A stretch of 64,000 nt of DNA from Natrinema saccharevitans. Its GTDB lineage: Archaea > Halobacteriota > Halobacteria > Halobacteriales > Natrialbaceae. Position 1 is the first letter of the stretch, and each line of letters opens with the position of its first letter. The stretch is taken from assembly GCF_001953745.1 (NCBI RefSeq), contig NZ_LWLN01000001.1:2170001-2234000 (forward strand). The letters run 5' to 3'. Below the pieces are notes generated by a model, which was not told the DNA's origin, searched no databases, and saw only the letters and a list, made by a program, of their open reading frames with translations. The translations under genes were made by a program, and so were the position numbers. Below, in pieces: positions 32,070-54,032 of this stretch.

Positions 32070-32339
32070 TTACGACTGAATGTCGAGGCTGTACAGGCGC
32101 TTGCGAGCGTCGGAAAACGAGAATCGCGAGTCGATGACGTTCGCCTCGTCGAGCCGGTTCAGGGCGTACCGAACCGTCCGCGAGGGCAACAGCGTCTCGT
32201 CGGCGAGCTGTTGCTGGGTCATCGTGTCGTTGTACTCGAGGACCTTCGCGACGAGTTTCGCGCTCGGGGGCAGATCCCGGACGTCGTCCCACGTTCCGCG
32301 CTCGCTGGTCTCCTGTCGAAGCGGCTCTGAAGCACTCAT
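32070..32339 (-). CDS. small winged-helix regulator (MarR-like)
   Basis: 89 residues: an acidic lead, then LPPSAKLVAKVLEYNDTMTQ, QQLADETLLPSRTVRYALNR and LDEANVIDSR, a full winged helix ending at the last strand LYSLDIQS. It is divergent from PAN, with 125 bp between. It is a clear relative of the N-terminal domain of the HTH-rhodanese protein at 47,274-48,362 (shared LPPS-K, ETLL-SRT-RY-L, LDE/LEEE-I pattern), but has Pro where that protein has Cys. Confidence 0.85.
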   Translation of the reverse strand: MSASEPLRQETSERGTWDDVRDLPPSAKLVAKVLEYNDTMTQQQLADETLLPSRTVRYALNRLDEANVIDSRFSFSDARKRLYSLDIQS

Positions 32340-40755: not shown

Positions 40756-40827
40756 TACCGGAAATTGTCGGGGCTGGGATTTGAATCGTTGGCTTCCGCG
40801 ACCGACGCCCCGGGTTCGCAATTATTT

Positions 40828-40840
40828 CCGCAATTTGCGG
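40828..40840. promoter_or_regulatory. 13-bp palindrome between fen and a small membrane-protein gene
   Basis: CCGCAA-T-TTGCGG is a perfect palindrome 73 bp upstream of fen and 83 bp upstream of the divergent small gene. It sits between AT-rich stretches (AATTATTT and GGATAATAC) that may be the two TATA elements. Could be a shared operator. Confidence 0.4.
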
Positions 40841-41532: not shown

Positions 41533-42549
41533 CTACGCGTAGTTGTCTCCCTCATCGACGGGACCACTGAACGCGGAATAGAGGACGACGAAGTACGTCA
41601 CGACCAGCGGCAAGAGGACGGTCGCACCGATCGTCGTCAGATTCAGCGCCAGCGTCGAGACGACCGCAGCCTCGATCCTGAGCCCGGACGCCGGATCGAT
41701 CAGGGGAAACAGCAGCGTCGCGACGAGCGCGACGAGCGCGTACACCTGCCCCGCGACGGCCACGAAAGCCAGATAGTGGCGACCGGCCCGGCCCGCGATC
41801 ACGTGAACGACGGCCAGTAGCACCGTCAGCCCGAGCAGTCCGAGCGTCGGAGCCGAACCGATCGCGACGTACGGCGACGATCGACTGCCGACGAGCAACG
41901 CGGCGACCGCCAGCAGGAGGTAGGCGATCTGCGCGAGGTGGCCGAGCGGTCGCGTCTCGAGTCGGACGTCACCCCGCGTTTTCAGCCCGAGGTAGGCCGC
42001 ACCGTCCGCGACGGTGAGCGCGACGACGGCCAGTCCGACGAGCAGGCTCGCGGCCGACGCCGCGCTCTCGACGCCGAACAGCCAGTTACCGGCGAAGACG
42101 CCGAGGAAAAACGGCGAGGCGACGCTCCCGGCGACGAAGGCCCGGCCCCACCACCGCTGCCACGTCTCGTCGTGGCGTTGTTCGTACATCTCCGGGGCGA
42201 GACCACGCACGATGAGCGCGCCGAGAATCGCGAACATCAACAGGTAGTGGCGACTGAAAAGCACTGCGTACGCCTCCGGAAAGACGGCGAACAGCATGCC
42301 TCCGAAGACGACCAGCCACACTTCGTTACCGTCCCAGAACGGACCGATCGCTGCCAGCAACTGCTCTCGCTCGGCGTCCGTCCTCCGCGTGGCAAACAGC
42401 GCGCCGACGCCGAAGTCGAACCCGTCGAGAAACAGGAAGGTTCCGAAGACGGCAAACACCAGTCCGAACCAGAGTCGATCGAGCGGCAAGCCAAGCAGTG
42501 GCCCCTCGGCGAGAGCCAGCGGGACAGTCGCGAGCGAACCGTTAGTCAT
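41533..42549 (-). CDS. cydB: cytochrome bd-type oxidase subunit II
   Basis: 338 residues with about eight transmembrane helices. The CydB landmarks FGTFLFLDGFDFGVGALF and IGPFWDGNEVWLVVFGGMLF are near the N terminus, and ARGLAPE-like loop LIVRGLAPEMYEQRHD follows. It completes the quinol oxidase with CydA. It overlaps cydA by 8 bp, so translation is coupled. Confidence 0.95.
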   Translation of the reverse strand: MTNGSLATVPLALAEGPLLGLPLDRLWFGLVFAVFGTFLFLDGFDFGVGALFATRRTDAEREQLLAAIGPFWDGNEVWLVVFGGMLFAVFPEAYAVLFSRHYLLMFAILGALIVRGLAPEMYEQRHDETWQRWWGRAFVAGSVASPFFLGVFAGNWLFGVESAASAASLLVGLAVVALTVADGAAYLGLKTRGDVRLETRPLGHLAQIAYLLLAVAALLVGSRSSPYVAIGSAPTLGLLGLTVLLAVVHVIAGRAGRHYLAFVAVAGQVYALVALVATLLFPLIDPASGLRIEAAVVSTLALNLTTIGATVLLPLVVTYFVVLYSAFSGPVDEGDNYA

Positions 42550-43942
42550 CGCTCGGGACGACCTCCTCGGGGACAGTCGGCTCGCGGTTCGATGACGGCG
42601 GTGCCGTCGGCGCGTCCTCCCGGATGAGCCGCACCACGACGTACCAGTAGAGGACCAACAACGCCGTATACACCCCGACGAAGCCAGCCAGGGTGGTGAG
42701 GGCTTCCGGTCCGCTCAGCCCGGGCGAGACGCCCGCGTGCGTCTTCATCACGTCCTGGATGACCCACGGCTGGCGGCCGACCTCGGTCACGATCCAGCCC
42801 AGTTCGACGGTGAATATACCGAGGACCGACGATCCCACGAACGCAATCGCCAGCCGATCGTCCTCGAACAGGGTCCCCTGAAGCCACCGATAGCCGCCCC
42901 AGAAGGCAAGCACGATGAACCACGTTCCGAGACCGACCATCGCCCGGAACGCCCAGAAGACGATGGCGACCGGCGGACGCTCGGCGTCCATGTCGTTCAG
43001 GCCGGTAATCGTCGCACCGGGATCACCGCCGCTCGCAAGCAGCGATGCGACGAACGGGATTTCGACCACGAAGAGGTCATCGGCGTGGGGATCGGTGATG
43101 TCCTCGAGGCTCGTCGGAACCGCCAGCAACTTCAGCGCGACCGTCGAGTCGGTCTCGTACTGTGCTTCCATCGCGGCGAACTTCTGGGGCTGCGTGTCCG
43201 CGACGTGTCGTCCGTACGCGTCGCCGTGGATCGCCTGGAACGGCGCGGTGACGAGCAGGACCGCGAGTCCGATTTTCATCGTCTTGCGCCAGAACTCGGT
43301 GTCGCGGTTCGTCCAGACGAAATAGGCGGCCGTCCCGGTCAGAAACAGCGCGACCGACAGAACCGCCGCGTTCTGCATGTGGACGAACATCCACGGGAAG
43401 CGCGGATTGGCGTAGGCCGCGATCGGATCCACGAGCGTGACGATCGGCTGTCCGTTCTCCGTCGCCAGCTCGTAGCCACGCGGCGTTTGCATCCACGAGT
43501 TGGCGATCAGGATCCAGACCGCCGACAGCCAGGTTCCGAGGCCGACGGCCACGGCAGAAATCATGTACAGGACGTCGCCGACGCGGTCGCGACCGAAGAC
43601 GAAGATGCCGAGGAACGTCGCCTCGAGCATGAACGCCATCATTCCCTCGATAGCGAGCGGGCCACCGAACAGTTCGCCGGCGGTCGTCGAGAACGCCGCG
43701 AAGTTCGTCCCGAACTCGAACTCGAGGACGATTCCCGTGACGGTTCCGACGACGAACGAGATAGCGAATATCTTCGTCCAGAACGTTCGGAGCTGTTCGT
43801 ATACCTGTTCGCCGGTCCGTATCTCTTTCCACGTGAAGTAGATGAGAAAGGGGGCGAGCCCCATACTCATGACTGGAAAGATGATGTGGACTATCGTCGT
43901 CACCGCAAACTGAAGTCTGCTGGCGATGACTGGGTCGATCAT
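42542..43942 (-). CDS. cydA: cytochrome bd-type oxidase subunit I
   Basis: 466 residues. The N-terminal SRLQFAVTTIVHIIFPVMSM contains a heme-ligand His. EFEFGTNFAAFSTTAGELFG and MLEATFLGIFVFG follow, and GRQPWVIQDVMKTHAGVSP is the CydA-specific GRQPW signature. The Q-loop is short, as in cyanide-insensitive (CIO) types. The enzyme oxidises quinol and reduces O2 at high affinity and is generally resistant to sulfide, which suits its place beside sulfide:quinone oxidoreductase. Confidence 0.96.
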   Translation of the reverse strand: MIDPVIASRLQFAVTTIVHIIFPVMSMGLAPFLIYFTWKEIRTGEQVYEQLRTFWTKIFAISFVVGTVTGIVLEFEFGTNFAAFSTTAGELFGGPLAIEGMMAFMLEATFLGIFVFGRDRVGDVLYMISAVAVGLGTWLSAVWILIANSWMQTPRGYELATENGQPIVTLVDPIAAYANPRFPWMFVHMQNAAVLSVALFLTGTAAYFVWTNRDTEFWRKTMKIGLAVLLVTAPFQAIHGDAYGRHVADTQPQKFAAMEAQYETDSTVALKLLAVPTSLEDITDPHADDLFVVEIPFVASLLASGGDPGATITGLNDMDAERPPVAIVFWAFRAMVGLGTWFIVLAFWGGYRWLQGTLFEDDRLAIAFVGSSVLGIFTVELGWIVTEVGRQPWVIQDVMKTHAGVSPGLSGPEALTTLAGFVGVYTALLVLYWYVVVRLIREDAPTAPPSSNREPTVPEEVVPSDD

Positions 43943-44029: not shown

Positions 44030-44719
44030 TTACTGCTCGCGCGTGACGAACCACCAGTCGTAGTAGTCGAGTTCGTCGTCGTCGTCGGCCGCTGCTTTGC
44101 GAGCGCTGGCGTCCGCTTCGGTCGCAGGCGGTGACAGGAGGACCCGGTCACCGAACACGTCGTTGTCCGGCCAGTCGGCGGGGGCGGCGACGCCGTGAGC
44201 GTCGCTCTTCTGGAGCGCACGCAGCGACCGGAGGATCTCGTCGATGTTGCGTCCGATCTCCATGGGATAGGTCAGGATCAGCCGGACGATTCCATCCGGG
44301 TCGACGATGAAGACGCTCCGGACGGTCGCCGTCCCCGCGCCCGGATGGAGCATCCCGAGCTTCTCGGCGACGCGTCCCTGATCGTCGGCGACGATCGGGA
44401 ACTGGATATCGACGTCTAAGTTGTCGCGAATCCACTCGGTCCACTTGATGTGGGAGTGTACGCGGTCGACGGAGAGGCCGAGGAGTTCGGCTTGCAGGTC
44501 CTCGAACTCCTCGCGACGCTGCTCGAACGCCACGAACTCCGAGGTACACACGGGCGTGAAGTCCCCGGGGTGGCTGAACAGGACGAGCCACGATCCCTCG
44601 TAGTCGTCGGGGAGCGATCGCTCGCCCATGCTCGTCTCGACCGTCAGGTCGGGGAACGAATCGCCGATTCCGGGTGTCTCGATCGTCGGTTCGTCCGCGG
44701 CGGCTGTTGGTTGCGTCAT
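44030..44719 (-). CDS. 1-Cys-type peroxiredoxin (Prx6/AhpC-TSA family)
   Basis: 229 residues from ATG 44719. Peroxidatic Cys58 lies in FSHPGDFTPVCTSEFVAF. The Prx6-like long C-terminal arm contains YPMEIGRNIDEILRSLRALQ. No second conserved resolving Cys is seen. It reduces peroxides; archaeal Prx6 homologues use external thiols. A TATA-like TTTAATAGG (minus strand, about 44745-44754) lies about 30 bp upstream, and a partly palindromic element about 95 bp upstream is shared with other genes of the sulfur cluster. Confidence 0.93.
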   Translation of the reverse strand: MTQPTAAADEPTIETPGIGDSFPDLTVETSMGERSLPDDYEGSWLVLFSHPGDFTPVCTSEFVAFEQRREEFEDLQAELLGLSVDRVHSHIKWTEWIRDNLDVDIQFPIVADDQGRVAEKLGMLHPGAGTATVRSVFIVDPDGIVRLILTYPMEIGRNIDEILRSLRALQKSDAHGVAAPADWPDNDVFGDRVLLSPPATEADASARKAAADDDDELDYYDWWFVTREQ

Positions 44720-44802
44720 CGTACATCTCTCCGTTGGGTATCTACCTATTAAACGGGAAGACAACCAACGAATTTTTCTACTTCAGAAGATCGAGTTTCG
44801 GA

Positions 44803-44825
44803 CTACAGAACATTATTTCCGGTAG
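44803..44825 (-). promoter_or_regulatory. sulfur-cluster motif, copy A (upstream of peroxiredoxin)
   Basis: On the minus strand: CTACCGGAAATAATGTTC then TGTAG, an imperfect inverted repeat (8 of 11 positions match between halves) centred 95 bp before the peroxiredoxin start. It shares the exact 11-mer GAAATAATGTT with copy C near 48,483. Being upstream of TATA, it would suit an activator. Confidence 0.45.
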
Positions 44826-44885: not shown

Positions 44886-45722
44886 TCAGTCGGACTCCTC
44901 GAGCGAGGCGCTTCCGAGTGCGCGGGCAGCCGCGAGGACGCGTCCGAGCGCACGCCGGACGTCGGCGTCGAACAGTGCCATGAAGAGACCGATCAGGCCG
45001 ACCGGTTCCGGATCGTCCTGCGAGAATCCGTCGATCGTGGCGTCGAGAGCCTCGGTGAACGTCGGGTCGCCCATCGTCTGTACGAGTGCGATCATGTTGC
45101 CCGCGTTCCGACCGAGTTCGTACATGTCGACGTCGTTTTCGGCGTGGGCGTCCGCAAAGCCCGTCGCGGCCATCCGGAGGTCCCGAATGACGTTCCGATT
45201 GTCCCGGGCCACGTCACGCAGTTCAGGCGTGAGATCGGTCGCCAGCTCGTGGGTCGCGTCGACCAGGTCGAGTAACTCCGCGAGCGTGTCGGCGTTGTCG
45301 CCCAGCGTTTCGAGGAGAACGAGCGTCTCTTCGCGCTCGAGGGCGAGTCGACTCCGTTCGATGATCTCGCGGTTCTCGCGGATCGCGACGCGCAGTTCCG
45401 GCACGAGGTCGTCGGTGAGGTCTTTCGACGCCGCCAGAACGTCCAGCAGTTCGACGAGCGTGTCCGATTCCTCGCCGACCTTCTGCAGGAGGACGAGCGT
45501 CTCCTCGCGCTCGAAGGCCAGGCGCAACTCACGGACGGCGTCGCGGTTTTCCCGGACGGACTCCCGGAGTTCCGGGGCCAGATCCTCGGCCAGTTCCTCC
45601 GTGGTCGCGAGCAAGCGGAGCAGCTCCGCCAGTTCGGCTTCGTTTTCCTCGATCGCTCGCGCCAGTTCCGTCTCGTCGGTGATCGAGCCGTCGGCGTCGA
45701 GGGGATAGTCGTTGCTCGCCAT
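44886..45722 (-). CDS. DUF1641-type helical protein of the SQR operon
   Basis: 278 residues. Three similar helical blocks repeat the phrases LREsVRENRDAVRELRLAFE, REETLVLLQKVGEESDTLVE and REETLVLLETLGDNADTLAE, suggesting internal duplication. The C-terminal part (LGRNAGNMIALVQTMGDPTF) is the DUF1641 region. There is no membrane segment. It begins 2 bp after the SQR stop, so it is co-transcribed. DUF1641 proteins commonly accompany membrane oxidoreductases; here it may be a partner of SQR. Confidence 0.85.
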   Translation of the reverse strand: MASNDYPLDADGSITDETELARAIEENEAELAELLRLLATTEELAEDLAPELRESVRENRDAVRELRLAFEREETLVLLQKVGEESDTLVELLDVLAASKDLTDDLVPELRVAIRENREIIERSRLALEREETLVLLETLGDNADTLAELLDLVDATHELATDLTPELRDVARDNRNVIRDLRMAATGFADAHAENDVDMYELGRNAGNMIALVQTMGDPTFTEALDATIDGFSQDDPEPVGLIGLFMALFDADVRRALGRVLAAARALGSASLEESD

Positions 45723-45724
45723 CG

Positions 45725-46903
45725 TTACGGGAGTGGGTCGTAGCCGCGCAGCCAGGAATCCCAGTAGAAACTGGGCAGAACGTTGACGTCCATGATCCAG
45801 TTCAACCGACTCTCGACGGGCGCGGAGATGCTCTCCTCGTAGTCGAACTCGGCGACCATCGCCTTGCCCTTCTTCGTCAGTAGCGGACAGGCGGCGTACC
45901 CCTCGTACGCCGCGGTCTGTCGTCGCCCCTCCATGTGGGCGGTGAGGTTCTCGAGGACGACGTGAGACTGCTTGCGAGCCGCGGCAGCCGTCTTGGCGTT
46001 GGGCGTGTTACAACCGTCGCCGAGTGCGAAGACGTCCTCGTACTCGGTATGCTGGAGGGTGTGTTCGTCGACGGCGACGTACTCGCCGTCGTTTTCCGTA
46101 TCAGCGTCAGTCAGCGGCGAGTTTTCGGTGAGCGCTTCCTGTCCGTACTGTGGCGGGACGGGCGCGTAGAGGTCGTACTCCTGTGTGTCACCGCCTTCGG
46201 AGCGGATGACCTGTGCTTCGGGATCGATCTCGTCGACCGTGAAGTTCAGGTTGGCCTCGATGTCGCGGTCGGCCCAGATCTCCTCGAGTTTCTCGCGGTA
46301 GGGCGAGACACCGAAGACGGCGTCGCTGCCCTTCGTCATGACGACGTCGACGTCGTCGCGGATACCCTGTCGTCGGAAGTAATCTTCCGCGAGCATCGTC
46401 ATCTTCAGCGGTGCGCCGCCGCACTTGATCGACGTATCGGGGACCGAGACGACGAACGTGCCGCCGTCGAAATCCTCGAGCGCGTCCCGCAGCCCCATCG
46501 CAGCATCGAAGTGATAGAACGGGTAGACCGAGTCGGTCTCCTCCCAGCCCTCGAGCATGCCGGGCGTCGTCTCGGGCGCGAGCCGGTGGCCCAGCGCGAC
46601 GACGAGGTAGTCGTAGGACAGTTCGTCGTCCCCGAGTACCACGGTCTTTGTGTCCGGGTCGACACCTGTTACCTCGGCCTGAACGAACTCGACGCCGTCC
46701 CGGACGAGTTCGCGGATATCGCGGAACTGATCGTCCGGCTCCATGTAGCCGAACGGCAGCAGGTAAAACGAGGGTTGATACGCGTGGTCCGTACTCTTGT
46801 CCACGATGCTGATCTCCGCGTCGGATCGGTCGAGTCGACGGCGGAGCATGTTGGCGGTCATCGTGCCGCCGACGCCAGCACCGAGCACGACTATGTGGTC
46901 CAT
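45725..46903 (-). CDS. sulfide:quinone oxidoreductase-type flavoprotein
   Basis: 392 residues from ATG 46903. N-terminal FAD-binding VVLGAGVGGTMTANMLRRR, second Rossmann region LVVALGHRLAPETTPGMLEG and FAD tail ALGDGCNTPNAKTAAAAR. Three cysteines sit where SQR needs them: Cys161 (SIKCGGAP), Cys298 (GDGCNTP) and Cys339 (YAACPLLTKKGK). It oxidises sulfide to persulfide/polysulfide and passes electrons to quinone at the membrane face. The C-terminal WDSWLRGYDPLP is amphipathic and may anchor it. First gene of the pair with DUF1641. Confidence 0.9.
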   Translation of the reverse strand: MDHIVVLGAGVGGTMTANMLRRRLDRSDAEISIVDKSTDHAYQPSFYLLPFGYMEPDDQFRDIRELVRDGVEFVQAEVTGVDPDTKTVVLGDDELSYDYLVVALGHRLAPETTPGMLEGWEETDSVYPFYHFDAAMGLRDALEDFDGGTFVVSVPDTSIKCGGAPLKMTMLAEDYFRRQGIRDDVDVVMTKGSDAVFGVSPYREKLEEIWADRDIEANLNFTVDEIDPEAQVIRSEGGDTQEYDLYAPVPPQYGQEALTENSPLTDADTENDGEYVAVDEHTLQHTEYEDVFALGDGCNTPNAKTAAAARKQSHVVLENLTAHMEGRRQTAAYEGYAACPLLTKKGKAMVAEFDYEESISAPVESRLNWIMDVNVLPSFYWDSWLRGYDPLP

Positions 46904-46946: not shown

Positions 46947-46986
46947 GCCGAGACATTGTCGGCGAGTCTCGCGATCCGGCGATCTT

Positions 46987-47005
46987 CCGCAAATAATTTC
47001 TGCTA
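46987..47005 (-). promoter_or_regulatory. sulfur-cluster motif, copy B (upstream of SQR)
   Basis: Minus strand TAGCAGAAATTATTTGCGG, centred 93 bp before the SQR start. ATAGCAGAAAT (11 bases, with the preceding A) is identical to copy C. It lacks the clear right half seen in copies A and C. Confidence 0.4.
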
Positions 47006-47273: not shown

Positions 47274-48362
47274 TTACGGGTCTCTCGACTCGCACGTTTC
47301 GATGGGAACGTCGACGAGGTTCCCCCATTCGGTCCAGGAGCCGTCGTAGTTCGCGACGTCCGGATACCCGAGCAGTTCCGAGAGGGCAAACCAGACCAGC
47401 GCCGAGCGTTCGCCGACGTTACAGTAGACGAGGATCTCGTCTTCCTCGTCGATATCGGCCTCGGCGAACGGACGCTCGAGCGCCCGTCGATGCTCGAATC
47501 GCCCACACTCCCGAACGACGCTCTCCCATTCGATGTTTACCGTCCGGGGAATGTGGCCGTTCGCGCGTGCCGGCGCGTCCACATCGCCGCAGTACTCCTC
47601 GGGCGACCGGACATCGATGATGGCGACGTCCTCCGAGAGCGCGTTCTGGACGTCCTGTCGGTACGCACGGATGTGATCGTTCGGAGGCTGGGTCTCGTAC
47701 TCGACCGGCGTCACGTCCGGGGCCGTCTCCGTCAGCGGAAAGCCGTTCTCGGTCCAGTAGTGTTTCCCACCGTTGAGCAGTCGCACGTCCCGATGGCGGT
47801 AATACTTGAGCGTCCAGTAGACGAACGCCGCGAACTCGTTGAACCCATCGCTGTAGAGGACGATCGTGCTGTCCGGCCCGATACCACGCTCGCCCAGGAT
47901 CGTCTCGAGTCGGTCGGCACTCGGAATCGTTCGCGTCCCCGCATCGAAAAAGTCGGCGCGCGGGTCCAGTTCGACGGCGCCGGGAACGTGTCCCTCGTCG
48001 TATTCGGTCGAGATCTCGACGAGTCGGAGGTCCGGATCGTCCGCTTCGAACGTCTCGAGCTGTTTATACGCGCTGTCCGGCTTGACGAGTACCTGATTCG
48101 GATACCCGGTTCGATCGACGCCGATCGATCGGGTACTGATACTGTAACAGGTCTGGCGGCCATCGTGGAGCGCGGGCGCGGTCTCGATCAGGCGTTCCTC
48201 CTCTAACTGGGAGAGGCCGTATCGTGCCGTCCGCGAACAGAGAAGCGTCTCTTCCGTGATCTGCTTTAGCGTCATCGATCCTTCCCGAGACAGCGTCTTG
48301 TAGATGAACTTCGAACTCGGCGGGAGGTCCTTCAGGGCCTCCTCTACGTCGGGGGTGTGCAT
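47274..48362 (-). CDS. winged-helix domain fused to two rhodanese domains
   Basis: 362 residues from ATG 48362, with TTTATATAC (48391-48398) about 30 bp upstream, so leaderless. Residues 10-78 form a winged helix (LPPSSKFIYKTLSREGSMTL; ETLLCSRTARYGLSQLEEER). Residues 90-215 are a rhodanese fold whose active loop reads LYSDGFNE, so it has no catalytic Cys. Residues 225-355 are a second rhodanese with VYCNVGERSALVW, placing catalytic Cys314 in a CxxGxR loop. Other cysteines are at 42 (in the recognition-helix region), 72, 258, 286 and 357. It may be a persulfide-responsive regulator or a thiosulfate sulfurtransferase with a DNA-binding arm. Divergent from the dioxygenase gene. Confidence 0.88.
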   Translation of the reverse strand: MHTPDVEEALKDLPPSSKFIYKTLSREGSMTLKQITEETLLCSRTARYGLSQLEEERLIETAPALHDGRQTCYSISTRSIGVDRTGYPNQVLVKPDSAYKQLETFEADDPDLRLVEISTEYDEGHVPGAVELDPRADFFDAGTRTIPSADRLETILGERGIGPDSTIVLYSDGFNEFAAFVYWTLKYYRHRDVRLLNGGKHYWTENGFPLTETAPDVTPVEYETQPPNDHIRAYRQDVQNALSEDVAIIDVRSPEEYCGDVDAPARANGHIPRTVNIEWESVVRECGRFEHRRALERPFAEADIDEEDEILVYCNVGERSALVWFALSELLGYPDVANYDGSWTEWGNLVDVPIETCESRDP

Positions 48363-48472: not shown

Positions 48473-48493
48473 TAGCAGAAATAATGTTGGCTA
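48473..48493 (+). promoter_or_regulatory. sulfur-cluster motif, copy C (shared divergent promoter)
   Basis: TAGCAGAAATAATGTTGG then CTA: inverted TAGC/GCTA ends with partial symmetry inside. It is centred 104 bp before the dioxygenase start and 121 bp before the HTH-rhodanese start. It shares 11-mers with copy A (GAAATAATGTT) and copy B (ATAGCAGAAAT), so it links the three sites. Confidence 0.5.
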
Positions 48494-48586
48494 CCTCCGC
48501 AGTTGACGCTCTTGCCCGAGATTTGTGCGAAATTATTCTCCCTGCTCGAGGCGTTTTACGTGGCCTCTCGGTACGATACAGTGACG

Positions 48587-49762
48587 ATGGTCGAGACAAT
48601 CACGGCTGAAACGTTGCGGGACATGATCGATGCCGACGAGCAGTTCGTCCTCATCGATACCAGATCGCCCGATAGTTTCGAGGACTGGCACATCGCCGGC
48701 GCCGAGAACGTCGAGTACTCCGGCGACGACGACGAGCTGATCGGCGAGTTCGACGCGGACGACCTCGAGGCGGACGATACCGTCGTCACGATCTGCGCGA
48801 CGGGCAACTCCGCGAGCAGTTTCGCGACGTACCTCGAGAGCGAGGGGGTCGTCGACGAGGTCAAGACCGTCGAGGGCGGTATGGAGGCCTGGAGTATGGT
48901 CTACGACGTCGTGCCGATCGCCACGCAAAACGACGATCTCGTCGTGTTGCAGCTCCAACGGCGATCGAAGGGCTGTCTGGGGTACGTCGTCGGCTCCAAG
49001 CGGGCCGGCGAAGCGGCGCTCGTAGACGTCACCCGCGCCACCGACGTGTTCCTCGACGCCGCACGCGAGCGCGGATTGAAAGTGACGAACGTGCTGGATA
49101 CGCACATCCACGCGGATCACATCTCGCGCGGTCGACGGCTCGCCGACAGGCTCGGCGTCCCCTACCACCTCGGCGCGCCCGCCGAGACGCGGGACCCGCA
49201 GTTCGAGTTCGATCCCATCGAGCCGAACGACACCGTCGAACTCGGCGACGTGGAGATCAAGGCCGTCCACACGCCGGGCCACACCACGGGAATGACGTCC
49301 TACCTGGTCGACGGCGAAGCGCTGCTTACCGGCGACACGCTGTTCGTCGAGTCCATCGGCCGAACCGAACTCCAGTTTGCGGACAAGGACGCCCGCGACG
49401 GGGCCCGCGTCCAGTACGAGACACTCCACAGGGTCATCATGACCGAGTCCAACGACGTGAAGATCCTGCCGGGACACTTCTCGGTCACCGACGACGGCGA
49501 GTACATCGACGTGACGCCCGGCCAGCCGATGTTCTCGACCGTCGGCTACCTCTGGGAGAACAACGAAATCCTCCGGCTGGACGAGGACGACTTCGTCGAA
49601 CACATGTTCGAGAACCTGCCGTCGAAACCGCCGAACTACGAGCAGGTCATCGCGACCAACGCCGGCGAGTACGAACCGGCGGACGAGGACGAAGAGACAG
49701 AACTCGAACTCGGCCCGAACCGCTGTGCCGCCACGTCGGACAGCGCCGTCGCCGACGACTGA
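48587..49762 (+). CDS. rhodanese-metallo-beta-lactamase fusion, persulfide dioxygenase type
   Basis: 391 residues from ATG 48587. Residues 1-105 are a rhodanese domain with active loop TICATGNSASS (Cys70). From about 110 comes an MBL-fold domain with DTHIHADHISRGRRLA (HxHxDH, 173-178), VHTPGHTTGMTSYLV, LLTGDTLFVESIGRTEL and ILPGHFSV. This order resembles ETHE1-like persulfide dioxygenases fused to rhodanese, though most known fusions have the domains reversed. Expected reactions are low-molecular-weight persulfide + O2 to sulfite, with rhodanese sulfur transfer. It starts the run with the 49-residue peptide and TauE exporter. Confidence 0.88.
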   Translation: MVETITAETLRDMIDADEQFVLIDTRSPDSFEDWHIAGAENVEYSGDDDELIGEFDADDLEADDTVVTICATGNSASSFATYLESEGVVDEVKTVEGGMEAWSMVYDVVPIATQNDDLVVLQLQRRSKGCLGYVVGSKRAGEAALVDVTRATDVFLDAARERGLKVTNVLDTHIHADHISRGRRLADRLGVPYHLGAPAETRDPQFEFDPIEPNDTVELGDVEIKAVHTPGHTTGMTSYLVDGEALLTGDTLFVESIGRTELQFADKDARDGARVQYETLHRVIMTESNDVKILPGHFSVTDDGEYIDVTPGQPMFSTVGYLWENNEILRLDEDDFVEHMFENLPSKPPNYEQVIATNAGEYEPADEDEETELELGPNRCAATSDSAVADD

Positions 49763-49932: not shown

Positions 49933-50964
49933 ATGGAACTGTTCGGAATGAGCGTTCTCCTCGTCGGGACGTTCGTCGGGTTCGGCCTGCTCATCGGAAT
50001 CCTGTTCGGATTCTTCGGGATGGGCGGGTCGTTCCTGGTCACGCCCGCACTGCTGGTGATGGGCTACGACGCCAACGTCGCGGTCGGGTCCGGACTCGCG
50101 TTCGTCTTCGGGACCTCCGTCATCGCGACGCTCAAACACCGCGACCTCGGCCAGGTCGACTACAAACTCGGCATCCTGATGATCGCCGGCACTACCGCCG
50201 GTATCGAGGTCGGGAAAGTCGGCCTCGAGTACCTGCAGGAACTCGGCCTGGCCGGCTCGGTGGTCAGCGTCGCGTACGTCTTCCTGCTCGGCGGGATCGG
50301 CGTCTTCGTCACCTACGAGGCGATGAAAGGTGGCGGTGACGGCCTCGAACACGACGTCGACGAGGACGCCGACCTCGAGGACGAGGAGATTCCCGAGATC
50401 GCACAGAAGATCCAGTCCTACAGCGTCCCGCCGATGATCTCCATTCGGGGCGGGTTCACGGTCTCGCTGTGGATGGTCCTGCTGGTGGCGTTCGCGACGG
50501 GGGTGCTGTCGGGCTTCCTGGGCGTCGGCGGCGGCTTCATCCGCATGCCCGCGCTGTTCTACCTGATCGGCGTCCCCGTCCCGGTCGCGGTCGGCACCGA
50601 CCTGTTCGAGATCGTCTTCTCGGGCGGGATCGGGAGCTTCCTCTACGCCCAGTCGGGCGCCGTCGACCTGAGCATCGTCGTGCCGCTGCTGGCCGGGAGC
50701 GCACTCGGCGCGCGCATCGGCGCGGCCGCGACGAACCTCGTCGACGAGGACGACATCAAGGTCTACTTCGGGATCATGCTGTTGCTCGGCTCGATCGCGG
50801 TCGCCGTCCGCGAGATCGGTGGCGTCCTCGAGATGCCGGTCCTCGATACGGTGAGCCTGGCGATCATCCTCGGTGCGGCGCTGCTCGTCAGCGGAGCCGT
50901 CGTCTACAGCGGTATCGCCGTGCTTCGCGATGGAACGGACGCGTCGCCATCGGTCGCCGACTGA
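49933..50964 (+). CDS. TauE/SafE-family sulfite or organosulfur-anion exporter
   Basis: 343 residues with about eight transmembrane helices in two related halves: GILFGFFGMGGSFLVTPALL and GVLSGFLGVGGGFIRMPALF are the paired signatures. An acidic cytoplasmic loop (DVDEDADLEDEEIPEIAQKI) separates them. Members export sulfite, sulfonates or thiosulfate. Directly downstream of a persulfide dioxygenase, sulfite or thiosulfate is the likely substrate. Confidence 0.92.
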   Translation: MELFGMSVLLVGTFVGFGLLIGILFGFFGMGGSFLVTPALLVMGYDANVAVGSGLAFVFGTSVIATLKHRDLGQVDYKLGILMIAGTTAGIEVGKVGLEYLQELGLAGSVVSVAYVFLLGGIGVFVTYEAMKGGGDGLEHDVDEDADLEDEEIPEIAQKIQSYSVPPMISIRGGFTVSLWMVLLVAFATGVLSGFLGVGGGFIRMPALFYLIGVPVPVAVGTDLFEIVFSGGIGSFLYAQSGAVDLSIVVPLLAGSALGARIGAAATNLVDEDDIKVYFGIMLLLGSIAVAVREIGGVLEMPVLDTVSLAIILGAALLVSGAVVYSGIAVLRDGTDASPSVAD

Positions 50965-51056: not shown

Positions 51057-51635
51057 TCAGACCGGACACCGCTCGCGTAGCCGTTCGACGGCACGGCCGA
51101 CACGCGACCGCGCGTCCCGCAGTCCTCGTCGTCCCGCTTGCGCGCGCCGGGCGAGCGCGAAGCGGACTCCGTCGTACGTGTTACCCAGCAGGTTCCCGAA
51201 GTAGATCGCACGAGCGAACGCGACGATGTCGCCCGCCGTCTCGCGGCCGTAGGCCGCTTCTAACGCTTCCAGTGCCTCCCGACCCGGCTTCTCGTCCGTT
51301 TCCGCGTACTGCTGGGCGAACAGGAGCGCGGGCAGTTCGGTGTCGTCGACGGCCGCGTCGACGTCGCGCTCGAGGATCAGGGTGATCGTCTCCCGGTCGA
51401 CGCCGGTTTCCCGTGCGAGATCGGTGTGATACCGGGTACAGTACTGGCAGTCGTTGACCGCCGTGACCGCGAGCATGATCTTCTCCGCGAACCGGTCACT
51501 GACTCGGTCGGCACGCTTGGCCCGTACGAGTCGTGGAATATTCTGTACAAACCGAGCAATACCAGCAACCAGTGATCGAGCCGTGAACGTTTTCTTTCGG
51601 AAGTCGTCGCCGGATTCTTCTGTAGCACTCGGCAC
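51057..51635 (-). CDS. carboxymuconolactone decarboxylase / AhpD-like protein
   Basis: 192 residues. The AhpD-type redox centre is in AVNDCQYCTRYHTDLARETG (CxxCxxxH). A helical C-terminal half with AFARAIYFGNLLGNTYDGVR follows. AhpD-like proteins reduce or relay electrons to peroxiredoxins through the CxxC pair. It is convergent to TauE and, with the peroxiredoxin in the same cluster, fits thiol/peroxide handling. Confidence 0.85.
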   Translation of the reverse strand: MPSATEESGDDFRKKTFTARSLVAGIARFVQNIPRLVRAKRADRVSDRFAEKIMLAVTAVNDCQYCTRYHTDLARETGVDRETITLILERDVDAAVDDTELPALLFAQQYAETDEKPGREALEALEAAYGRETAGDIVAFARAIYFGNLLGNTYDGVRFALARRAQAGRRGLRDARSRVGRAVERLRERCPV

Positions 51636-51779
51636 GATACCTGCTTTTCACGGCACTCGTAAGTCGATTTCGGTCACCTATCGTGGACGACCGGTCTCCG
51701 ACTGACAGTCAGTCGACTCGTTTTTCGAGTTCGATCTTGTCCGATATAGAATATACTGGCTGGCGAGTCCGCGTCCGGA

Positions 51780-52334
51780 TCACGTGTCACGCGACTCGAG
51801 TGCCGGTGGGTCACTCCCCGTTCGCGACTCGAGGAACCGTTCCTCCGCGTCGGCGAGGTCCCGATTGCGGTATTCCTCGAGGCCGGCCTGGTACCGCTCG
51901 CGGTCGGTCCACGCGGCGGTCTCGGGGTCGCCCGGCGTCGGGTACTCGAGGATCAGTTCGGCGATCCCGGTCGTCTCCCCGGTGTAGGCGAAGCCGGTCC
52001 GGTAGAGCGCCTCGTAGGCGAAGGGGTTGTTGACGGCGATCCGGAGCCGCTCGTAGCCCCGCTCGAGGGTACGATCGCGGACATACCGACAGAGCGCGGG
52101 GCCGATCCCCTCGCCACGCCGGTCCCGGTCGACGGTGACGTAGCGCAGCCACAGCGTGTCGGCGTCGGTCCGGTCCTCGTTGAACGCGACGGCGGCGACG
52201 AGTCGGCCGTCGTCGGTGCGGGCGACGGCCTTGCCCGTGTTCGTCATGACGAACTTGCCGGCGTAGCTGAACCGCTCGTGGTCGAGTCGGAGTTTCGGGC
52301 CGTCGGCCGGCCAACCGAGCAGGTCGTATTCCAC
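51780..52334 (-). CDS. GNAT-family N-acetyltransferase
   Basis: 184 residues. The acetyl-CoA-binding motif is in VTVDRDRRGEGIGPALCRYV (R/Q-x-x-G-x-G/A) at about 70-90. Strands LRIAVNNPFAYEALYRTGF follow in the usual order. After the GNAT fold is a Glu/Arg-rich tail (YQAGLEEYRNRDLADAEERF). Acceptor unknown; no clear partner genes. Confidence 0.85.
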   Translation of the reverse strand: MEYDLLGWPADGPKLRLDHERFSYAGKFVMTNTGKAVARTDDGRLVAAVAFNEDRTDADTLWLRYVTVDRDRRGEGIGPALCRYVRDRTLERGYERLRIAVNNPFAYEALYRTGFAYTGETTGIAELILEYPTPGDPETAAWTDRERYQAGLEEYRNRDLADAEERFLESRTGSDPPALESRDT

Positions 52335-52564
52335 AGTTTCGCTTCGCAGGGATCACACAACAATCCACGGAATCGGATGAATTCCTGGGGACGAGTCTCT
52401 CCGATTCCGACAGGTGCGACGGGTTTTGGACCCGTTCCGATCGACCGGCACCGGCCAGTCTCCTCGAACGAACCGTTCACTCGCTTACTCAAAAAGAACG
52501 CCCACGTGAAAACCACACTACATCAAGTGAGTGGGAATGCTAACGGCTAACAGAGGAACTCCCC

Positions 52565-52867
52565 ATGGTCGACGACGCGTTCGATGCGCTGGCAGACGGT
52601 CACCGACGACGGTTGTTGCTCAGTCTCCTGGATCACAACCCGCAAGACGTCTCGACGGTCGACGGCATTCCCTGGAAGGTCGCCGAGATCGACGAGGAAC
52701 TGACGCGGAAATACCACGTCCATCTCCCGAAACTGGTCGACTACGGCTACATCGAGTGGCACCGCGACGCTGGGACCGTCGTTAAGGGGCCGCAATTCGA
52801 CGAGATACGCCCGCTGCTCGAGTTACTGGACGACCATCGGGACGAACTCCCCGACGGATGGCCCTGA
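52565..52867 (+). CDS. ArsR-like winged-helix protein (haloarchaeal DUF7344-like)
   Basis: 100 residues. FDALADGHRRRLLLSLLDHN is the typical first helix pair, followed by EIDEELTRKYHVHLPKLVDY and GYIEWHRDAGTVVKGPQFDE (wing). No Cys or other metal-ligand cluster, so not a metal sensor of the ArsR/SmtB kind. Probably a transcription regulator; target not evident. Confidence 0.82.
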   Translation: MVDDAFDALADGHRRRLLLSLLDHNPQDVSTVDGIPWKVAEIDEELTRKYHVHLPKLVDYGYIEWHRDAGTVVKGPQFDEIRPLLELLDDHRDELPDGWP

Positions 52868-53219
52868 GAGCGACGAAAGCGGTTTCCGTTTTCCCGGCCT
52901 CACGACATTGACACCCCTGGCGGGCCGTACCTATCCGAGGAGAGACGAGTATATATTCTGTCAATAGTGTGTTCGAACGGGTCGCTCGAACGAACGAAAG
53001 GACACGCCCCGCCGTGGTTGGGCCGTAACGGGGCGCGCCGTCGAACTCTACCGGTCGTAGACTCAAGTAGCTTGTGTGATAATCTGGGTGAATAGGAGAT
53101 TCCGTCTGAAACCACCGTTTTCGGCGGCTCGTATCAGTGATTGCAAGCCAGACACGAATCCTTTTCCCGCCGTCAGTTCCTATTGTACCTGTTCGGAACG
53201 CCGGACACGTGGTTGGGCC
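52868..53219. other. 350-bp gene-free tract before the TrmB-type gene
   Basis: No gene seen. A TATA-like GTATATATTC lies at about 52950-52959. An inverted repeat GTTCGA-ACGGGTCGC-TCGAAC follows at about 52972-52992. The TrmB start is at 53220, so either a long leader or a small untranslated RNA would be needed if this TATA is used. Confidence 0.45.
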
Positions 53220-54032
53220 ATGACACAGGACAATCTTACGAACGAGGCGGTCAGTCTACTCCAGAATCTCGGGCTTCAGGAGTACGAAGCGCGGTGTTTT
53301 CTGGCATTGACGCGGCTACCCAGCGGTACGGCCAAAGAAATACACGAGATCTCGGAGGTCCCCCGAACGCGGGTCTACGACGCCATTCGGGTACTCGAAT
53401 CACAGGGGCTGGTCGAGGTACAACACTCGAGCCCCCAGCAGTTCCGGGCGGTCGGTATCGACGAAGCCACGCGGACTCTCCGACAGAAGTACGACAACCG
53501 GATCGACACCCTCGAGTCGTACCTCGAGACCGTCGAACACCGGGAGAGCGAACCCGACGACGACCGGATGCAGGAGGTGTGGTCGCTGACCGGACGCGAC
53601 GCGATCGAATCGCGAACGTTCGACCTGCTCGCGGAGGCCGACAGCGAGATCGCGCTGGTCGTCGCCGACGAAACCTTCCTCTCGGACGAGGTCTACGAAA
53701 CGTTACACGCCGCGATCGACCGGGACGTCTCGGTCATCCTCGGCGGCCGGACCGAGGAGATCACCTCGCGACTGGGGACGGAACTGCCGGCCGCCCGCGT
53801 GTTCGAGACGAACCTCGACTTCCTCATCGGTTCGATGACCGACCACGAGGTCGCGATCAGTCGCATCTTGCTCGTCGATCGGGAGACGCTGCTGATCGGG
53901 TCGTACTATCCCGACAGCGAGGACCCGACCGAGCAGGCGATCTTCGCCAGCGGCCTCGAGAACGGGATCGTCGTGTTGCTCCGGCGGTTGATCTCGTCCG
54001 GACTGACCGCCGTCGAGGATCCGAATCCGTAA
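53220..54032 (+). CDS. TrmB-family transcriptional regulator
   Basis: 270 residues from ATG 53220. The N-terminal TrmB winged helix (LLQNLGLQEYEARCFLALTR; SEVPRTRVYDAIRVLESQGL) is followed by a coiled linker at about 85-120. The C-terminal domain (LLAEADSEIALVVADETFLS; NGIVVLLRRLISSG) resembles the PLD-like effector region of TrmB proteins. Such proteins control sugar, redox or stress genes; the ligand is unknown. Confidence 0.87.
   Translation: MTQDNLTNEAVSLLQNLGLQEYEARCFLALTRLPSGTAKEIHEISEVPRTRVYDAIRVLESQGLVEVQHSSPQQFRAVGIDEATRTLRQKYDNRIDTLESYLETVEHRESEPDDDRMQEVWSLTGRDAIESRTFDLLAEADSEIALVVADETFLSDEVYETLHAAIDRDVSVILGGRTEEITSRLGTELPAARVFETNLDFLIGSMTDHEVAISRILLVDRETLLIGSYYPDSEDPTEQAIFASGLENGIVVLLRRLISSGLTAVEDPNP

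Follow-up and report, generated by a model that had tools for sequence, protein, structure and literature searches.

The domain comparisons, structure predictions and promoter analysis presented here suggest that a haloarchaeal protein, in which a winged helix is fused to a tandem rhodanese, is probably a local regulator of the activating type that acts on sulfide-oxidation genes and senses sulfane sulfur through its rhodanese part, possibly with Cys314 and Cys72 as the residues involved. The fusion is encoded in the window, by which we mean the whole stretch of 64,000 nucleotides analysed from Natrinema saccharevitans; its contig is, at 3.47 Mb, the largest of this 3.98 Mb haloarchaeal genome. 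The coordinates of the features discussed below are given in Table 1.

Both the open reading frame and the anatomy first read from it, a DNA-binding domain joined to two rhodaneses, are upheld by the domain search that the preliminary description had called for and by structure comparison. Pfam recognizes two rhodanese stretches (Rhodanese, 5.4e-31) and matches the winged helix weakly (HTH_27, E-value 0.005, below the cut-off); HTH_5, HTH_20 and ChrB gave no match to the fusion in this domain search. An AlphaFold2 model of residues 1-85, built from six sequences, is a winged helix with a pLDDT of 86, with helices at 4-11, 15-27, 32-39 and 43-55 and wing strands at 59-63 and 71-75; a full-length model from five sequences reached a pLDDT of 51 and was set aside. 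The top fold matches to the modelled winged helix (Foldseek, VIA) are MarR-family regulators, with VIA Z-scores of up to 11.6, and these stand above BigR (3pqk) and SqrR (6o8k), which also match at 9.8-9.9. Inspection for the dimerization helices of MarR proteins found one short N-terminal helix before the winged helix and the rhodanese directly after it. The nearest solved structures to the fusion are TST-type rhodaneses, with 1uar matching across residues 101-356 at an E-value of 2.7e-62. Purifying selection on the winged helix is as strong as that on the rhodanese (dN/dS of about 0.08-0.2 in both), and the recognition-helix residues are conserved among the fusions in an alignment of 45 sequences. 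Three such fusions on plasmid records bear the annotation 'rhodanese-like domain-containing protein' and nothing more.

The Pfam assignments of the neighboring genes bear out the original placement of the fusion amid a sulfide-oxidation cluster and divergent from a persulfide dioxygenase: SQR, DUF1641, the peroxiredoxin (Prx) and both cytochrome bd subunits are encoded on the strand of the fusion, and the persulfide dioxygenase-like gene (PDO) and TauE run in the opposite direction. Further along, window positions 51057-54032 hold a carboxymuconolactone decarboxylase-like (AhpD-type) gene, followed by genes for a DUF7344 winged-helix protein and a regulator of the TrmB family; the AhpD-type gene recurs in a number of fusion loci from the same genus.

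Table 1. Features of the fusion gene and its surroundings, in window coordinates. Promoter positions are relative to the start codon of the gene named.
Feature	Position	Strand	Remarks
Fusion gene	47274..48362	-	362 aa; winged helix at residues 4-76, tandem TST-type rhodanese at about residues 90-356
Winged-helix DNA-binding domain, residues 1-77	48132..48362	-	Recognition helix 43-55, wing 59-75
Cys314 codon	47421..47423	-	Rhodanese active-site loop CNVGER; invariant
Cys72 codon	48147..48149	-	In a wing strand; Cys in 43 of 45 fusions and in none of 27 unfused relatives
Cys42 codon	48237..48239	-	Not conserved: S 30, C 9, G 6
Operator-like semi-palindrome GCAGAAATAATGTTGGC	48475..48491		PDO -112, fusion -129
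PDO-proximal site TGCGAAATTATTCTCCC	48526..48542		-61, immediately before the TATA-like element of PDO; score 12/17, weaker, conserved in alignment
Operator-like site GCAGAAATTATTTGCGG	46987..47003		-100 of SQR
SQR-proximal site GCCGACAATGTCTCGGC	46947..46963		-60
Operator-like site CCGGAAATAATGTTCTG	44809..44825		-103 of peroxiredoxin
Cytochrome bd subunit II	41533..42549	-	Pfam
Cytochrome bd subunit I	42542..43942	-	Pfam
Peroxiredoxin (AhpC/1-Cys Prx)	44030..44722	-	Pfam
DUF1641 protein	44886..45722	-	Pfam
SQR-like flavoprotein	45725..46903	-	Pfam; start assigned to the ATG at 46903 (MDHIVV) from homologue alignment
Rhodanese-MBL protein, persulfide dioxygenase-like (PDO)	48587..49762	+	Pfam
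TauE/SafE sulfite exporter-like protein	49933..50964	+	Pfam

A survey of haloarchaeal genomes confirms the tie between the fusion and sulfur genes. Matches at 1e-90 or better place the fusion in 28 of the 391 genomes of the class and in 18 of 86 genera, with carriers in Natronomonas, Halorientalis, Halorussus, Salarchaeum and Natronorubrum. Of these 391 genomes, 41 have SQR (at 1e-120): all 28 fusion carriers and 13 of the 363 others (Fisher 4e-33, uncorrected for phylogeny). Of 45 loci, a set that counts one genome twice (L038 and L061 are apparently the same record), 41 hold SQR, and in 39 the fusion stands directly before it on the same strand; SQR is convergent with the fusion at L066 and L067, and the order fusion-SQR-DUF1641-Prx is retained across clades. 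The Salarchaeum sp. JOR-1 plasmid pJOR178 (L060, L114, L162) carries the fusion together with PDO, Prx and cydAB; SQR-DUF1641 is found on it about 108 kb from the fusion (L060) and keeps degenerate promoter sites. Second copies of the fusion at L084 and L086 lie apart from SQR and adjoin cytochrome bd genes, the latter copy being broken by stop codons, and a second copy at L085 has neither SQR nor cytochrome bd nearby, is close to an antiporter-like gene and has lost Cys72. In Natronorubrum bangense, Natronosalvus amylolyticus and Salarchaeum (L161, L162 and one further match) the cluster is carried on plasmids, and thus probably spreads by horizontal transfer. Other haloarchaea have a second type of SQR cluster without the fusion (L097-L113), in which DUF1641 shares an operon with two SQR-like genes, with a stand-alone TST (CRIGERS) nearby and, often, cytochrome bd.

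The fusions contain 4.3 cysteines on average, and the only constant positions are 72 and 314. Cys314, which the preliminary description had placed in an active-looking second rhodanese, is found in all 44 fusions with letters at this position (45 aligned). Cys42 had been put forward as a second thiol switch on DNA binding, with the note that a relative at 32,070 has proline there. The proline is indeed present in this unfused protein (32070-32339); the switch itself we reject, since position 42 is serine in 30 of the 45 fusions and cysteine in nine, and cysteine also occurs in four of 27 unfused winged-helix relatives, the others having proline or serine. The second conserved thiol is the wing residue Cys72, within the motif RQTCY, which the earlier account did not contain. 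The two fusions without it are L085, far from sulfur genes, and L091, with a cysteine two residues earlier; in the 27 unfused relatives position 72 is Leu, Val, Ile, Thr, Lys or Asn, and never Cys. At 80% non-redundancy Cys72 occurs in 19 of 21 fusions and in none of the 27 unfused proteins (Fisher 2e-11, uncorrected for phylogeny). As it stands where relatives have Leu, Val or Ile, Cys72 could be merely a packing residue. It is the sole conserved cysteine of the winged helix, so that the pair of cysteines by which SqrR and BigR are recognized is not found within this domain.

The rhodanese part has the tandem arrangement of TST/SseA enzymes with the catalytic cysteine in the second domain, and lacks their CRxGER loop. 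This loop reads CR[I/V]GER in 32 of 33 stand-alone haloarchaeal sulfurtransferases and C[N/H/G]VGER in the fusions, where Asn, His or Gly takes the place of the Arg in all 43 sequences compared. Also lost in the fusions are W134, W176 and R267 (window numbering), which are nearly invariant in the stand-alone enzymes. From the altered loop and the lost residues, with the catalytic cysteine kept, we infer that the rhodanese has left the role of a housekeeping thiosulfate sulfurtransferase for a different one; ordinary TSTs are also kept in the fusion-bearing genomes. Fused and stand-alone rhodaneses are split by a single branch with support of 98/93 in a second tree, from which the outlier T_L033_1 was left out, as expected from one fusion event in a tree whose root is not fixed. 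The first rhodanese does look inactive, as first described, in that its loop has no cysteine; this is nothing special, as the stand-alone haloarchaeal sulfurtransferases share the lack (YGDNSNW in that of the same genome), and a degenerate first rhodanese was accordingly discarded as a hallmark of a sensor.

A semi-palindrome with a consensus of approximately SCNGMAATWWTTKCNGS was first found on aligning the intergenic region between the fusion and PDO, and again upstream of SQR. Sites matching SCNGMAATWWTTKCNGS at 14/17 or better start between -103 and -98 from the SQR start codon in 27 of 29 non-redundant promoters, where shuffles predict 0.04, although the consensus was derived from the same promoters and the loci share a common ancestry; no motif site fell in any of 14 other six-base start windows that were sampled upstream of SQR. 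A looser second site lies near -60 of SQR, and a TATA-like element at -33. The motif also occurs upstream of Prx (18/25 against 2.5 expected, mostly at -100 or -60), of PDO (18/29 against 2.4 expected, at -112 in the clade of the window) and of the fusion itself (26/34 against 2.5 expected); two deep clades fit it less well. In the same cluster loci it is at background upstream of cydA, cydB, TauE and DUF1641. In fusion-less genomes the motif precedes one of 17 PDO homologues (1.1 expected) and none of three Prx homologues, which were used as controls because SQR in fusion-less clusters usually lies inside an operon; the 26 upstream regions of those SQRs had no motif. The fixed position and the fusion-less controls reduce, and do not remove, the circularity of the motif count. 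The PDO homologues of fusion-less genomes (L179, L186, L188-L190) have another upstream element, approximately ATATTGTGTG...GAATTACTATACAAA, close to the TATA-like element. Just beyond cydB, at window positions 40815-40831, a motif-like site (TTCGCAATTATTTCCGC) that may be due to chance is flanked by a FEN1-like gene and an ORF for a small membrane protein. A scan of the same genome with a 15-base motif gave 23 places at no more than two mismatches against five for the reversed control; this was too loose to define a regulon and was dropped.

A promoter motif that is shared by these genes and specific to fusion loci supports a regulatory role. The regulator reading of the preliminary description is thus supported in part, by the link to sulfur genes and the invariant Cys314, to which the motif is now added, and is shorn of its Cys42 switch. 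We propose that the MarR-like winged helix and the TST-type tandem rhodanese would together form a transcription regulator acting locally on the genes for sulfide oxidation and binding, probably as a dimer, to the semi-palindromes before SQR, PDO, Prx and its own gene; binding of the motif by the fusion is a prediction, and another winged helix of the same family may bind it instead. The predicted sites are usually paired, distal and proximal, 41-51 bp apart, with the proximal site immediately before the TATA-like element, an arrangement that favors activation over repression and suggests that the fusion is an activator. Cys314 of the second rhodanese would take up sulfane sulfur from SQR, as polysulfide or persulfide, and the resulting persulfide may act allosterically or hand its sulfur to Cys72 in the wing, altering DNA binding or promoter activation. 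SQR, PDO and Prx would then go up with reactive sulfur and down once PDO clears it. Genomic context and active-site divergence point to persulfide sensing; the sign of regulation and the Cys314-Cys72 link are likewise putative. More tentatively, the fusion may be a complete, re-tuned sulfurtransferase serving as a sensor, in which Cys314 captures sulfane sulfur and relays it within the molecule to Cys72, with the transfer step setting specificity over other oxidants, and which switches an archaeal sulfide regulon directly; we consider this possible, at rather less than even chances.

The near-invariance of Cys72 and its restriction to the fusions would also fit a protein that senses through this residue alone, with the rhodanese serving in dimerization or in sulfur delivery to other acceptors. 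One-Cys winged-helix sensors, such as OhrR, exist and lend weight to this. OhrR has been reported to sense sulfane sulfur (PMC9774590). However, Cys314 and its loop are equally conserved, the loop has changed consistently with the fusion, and the intact catalytic cysteine argues against a pure scaffold, which would not need one; we therefore think sensing by Cys72 alone unlikely.

The invariant Cys314 and CxxGER loop are what would be expected of a trigger enzyme, in which an active sulfurtransferase of the pathway (passing SQR-derived sulfur to PDO, for example) doubles as a DNA-binding regulator of its own operon, with catalysis as its primary function; genomes with the other type of SQR cluster keep a separate active-type TST near SQR, which agrees with this. 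We nevertheless doubt such a role, because the Arg at +1 and three further residues conserved in the enzymes are lost, and fusion-bearing genomes retain ordinary TSTs. Finally, as the binding of the motif by the fusion is itself a prediction and each genome encodes several unfused members of the winged-helix family, the protein might be a plain sulfurtransferase with an idle winged helix and the motif might belong to another regulator. This we regard as very improbable: the winged helix is constrained as strongly as the rhodanese, its recognition-helix residues are conserved, and in fusion-less genomes the motif is no commoner than background.

Persulfide-responsive winged helices are well known, and how they distinguish sulfane sulfur from peroxide or disulfide stress is a standing question. 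A rhodanese that handles only sulfane sulfur would settle this specificity by design, and with predicted operators, two named cysteines and culturable hosts the idea is directly testable. To our knowledge no regulator of sulfide oxidation in haloarchaea has been described, and we found none in the open-access literature. CstR, of the CsoR family, is a persulfide-responsive regulator of sulfide-oxidation genes. FisR likewise regulates such genes in response to persulfide (PMC9774590). Neither contains a rhodanese, and both differ from the fusion in their DNA-binding fold. SqrR, BigR and YgaV, ArsR-family repressors responsive to persulfide or sulfide, resemble it in being cysteine-based winged helices, and control adjacent SQR, PDO-type and rhodanese genes (PMC5823870, PMC9995734), as the fusion would. 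These sense with two cysteines inside the winged-helix protein, which in BigR are Cys42 and Cys108 and form a disulfide or polysulfide link (PMC5823870), whereas the fusion has one in the wing and one in the fused rhodanese; the repressor BigR binds at the -10 region (PMC5823870), whereas the sites at the fusion loci precede the TATA-like element. A precedent for a rhodanese in persulfide signalling comes from Rhodobacter, where the induction that depends on SqrR is modulated by a separate rhodanese (PMC9995734); in the fusion the rhodanese would be part of the regulator.

Each half of the fusion also has close unfused counterparts. Small haloarchaeal winged-helix proteins, such as that at 32070-32339, belong to the same winged-helix family (38% identical) but have no rhodanese and, in the 27 examined, no cysteine at position 72. 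SseA/TST-type thiosulfate sulfurtransferases (1uar, 3aax, 3hwi) have the whole tandem rhodanese in common with the fusion, which differs from them in its C[N/H/G]VGER for CR[I/V]GER, in the loss of other residues and in the added winged helix. For the combination of a MarR-like domain and an entire TST in one protein, with an archaeal sulfide regulon and its own operator, we found no description in the open-licence literature. The nearest to it are regulators of the ChrB and ArsR types in which rhodanese-like domains occur (PMC3817168). These likewise join a regulator and a rhodanese-like domain in one chain (PMC3817168); the fusion differs from them in its complete two-domain TST, its MarR-like DNA-binding part and its archaeal sulfide regulon.
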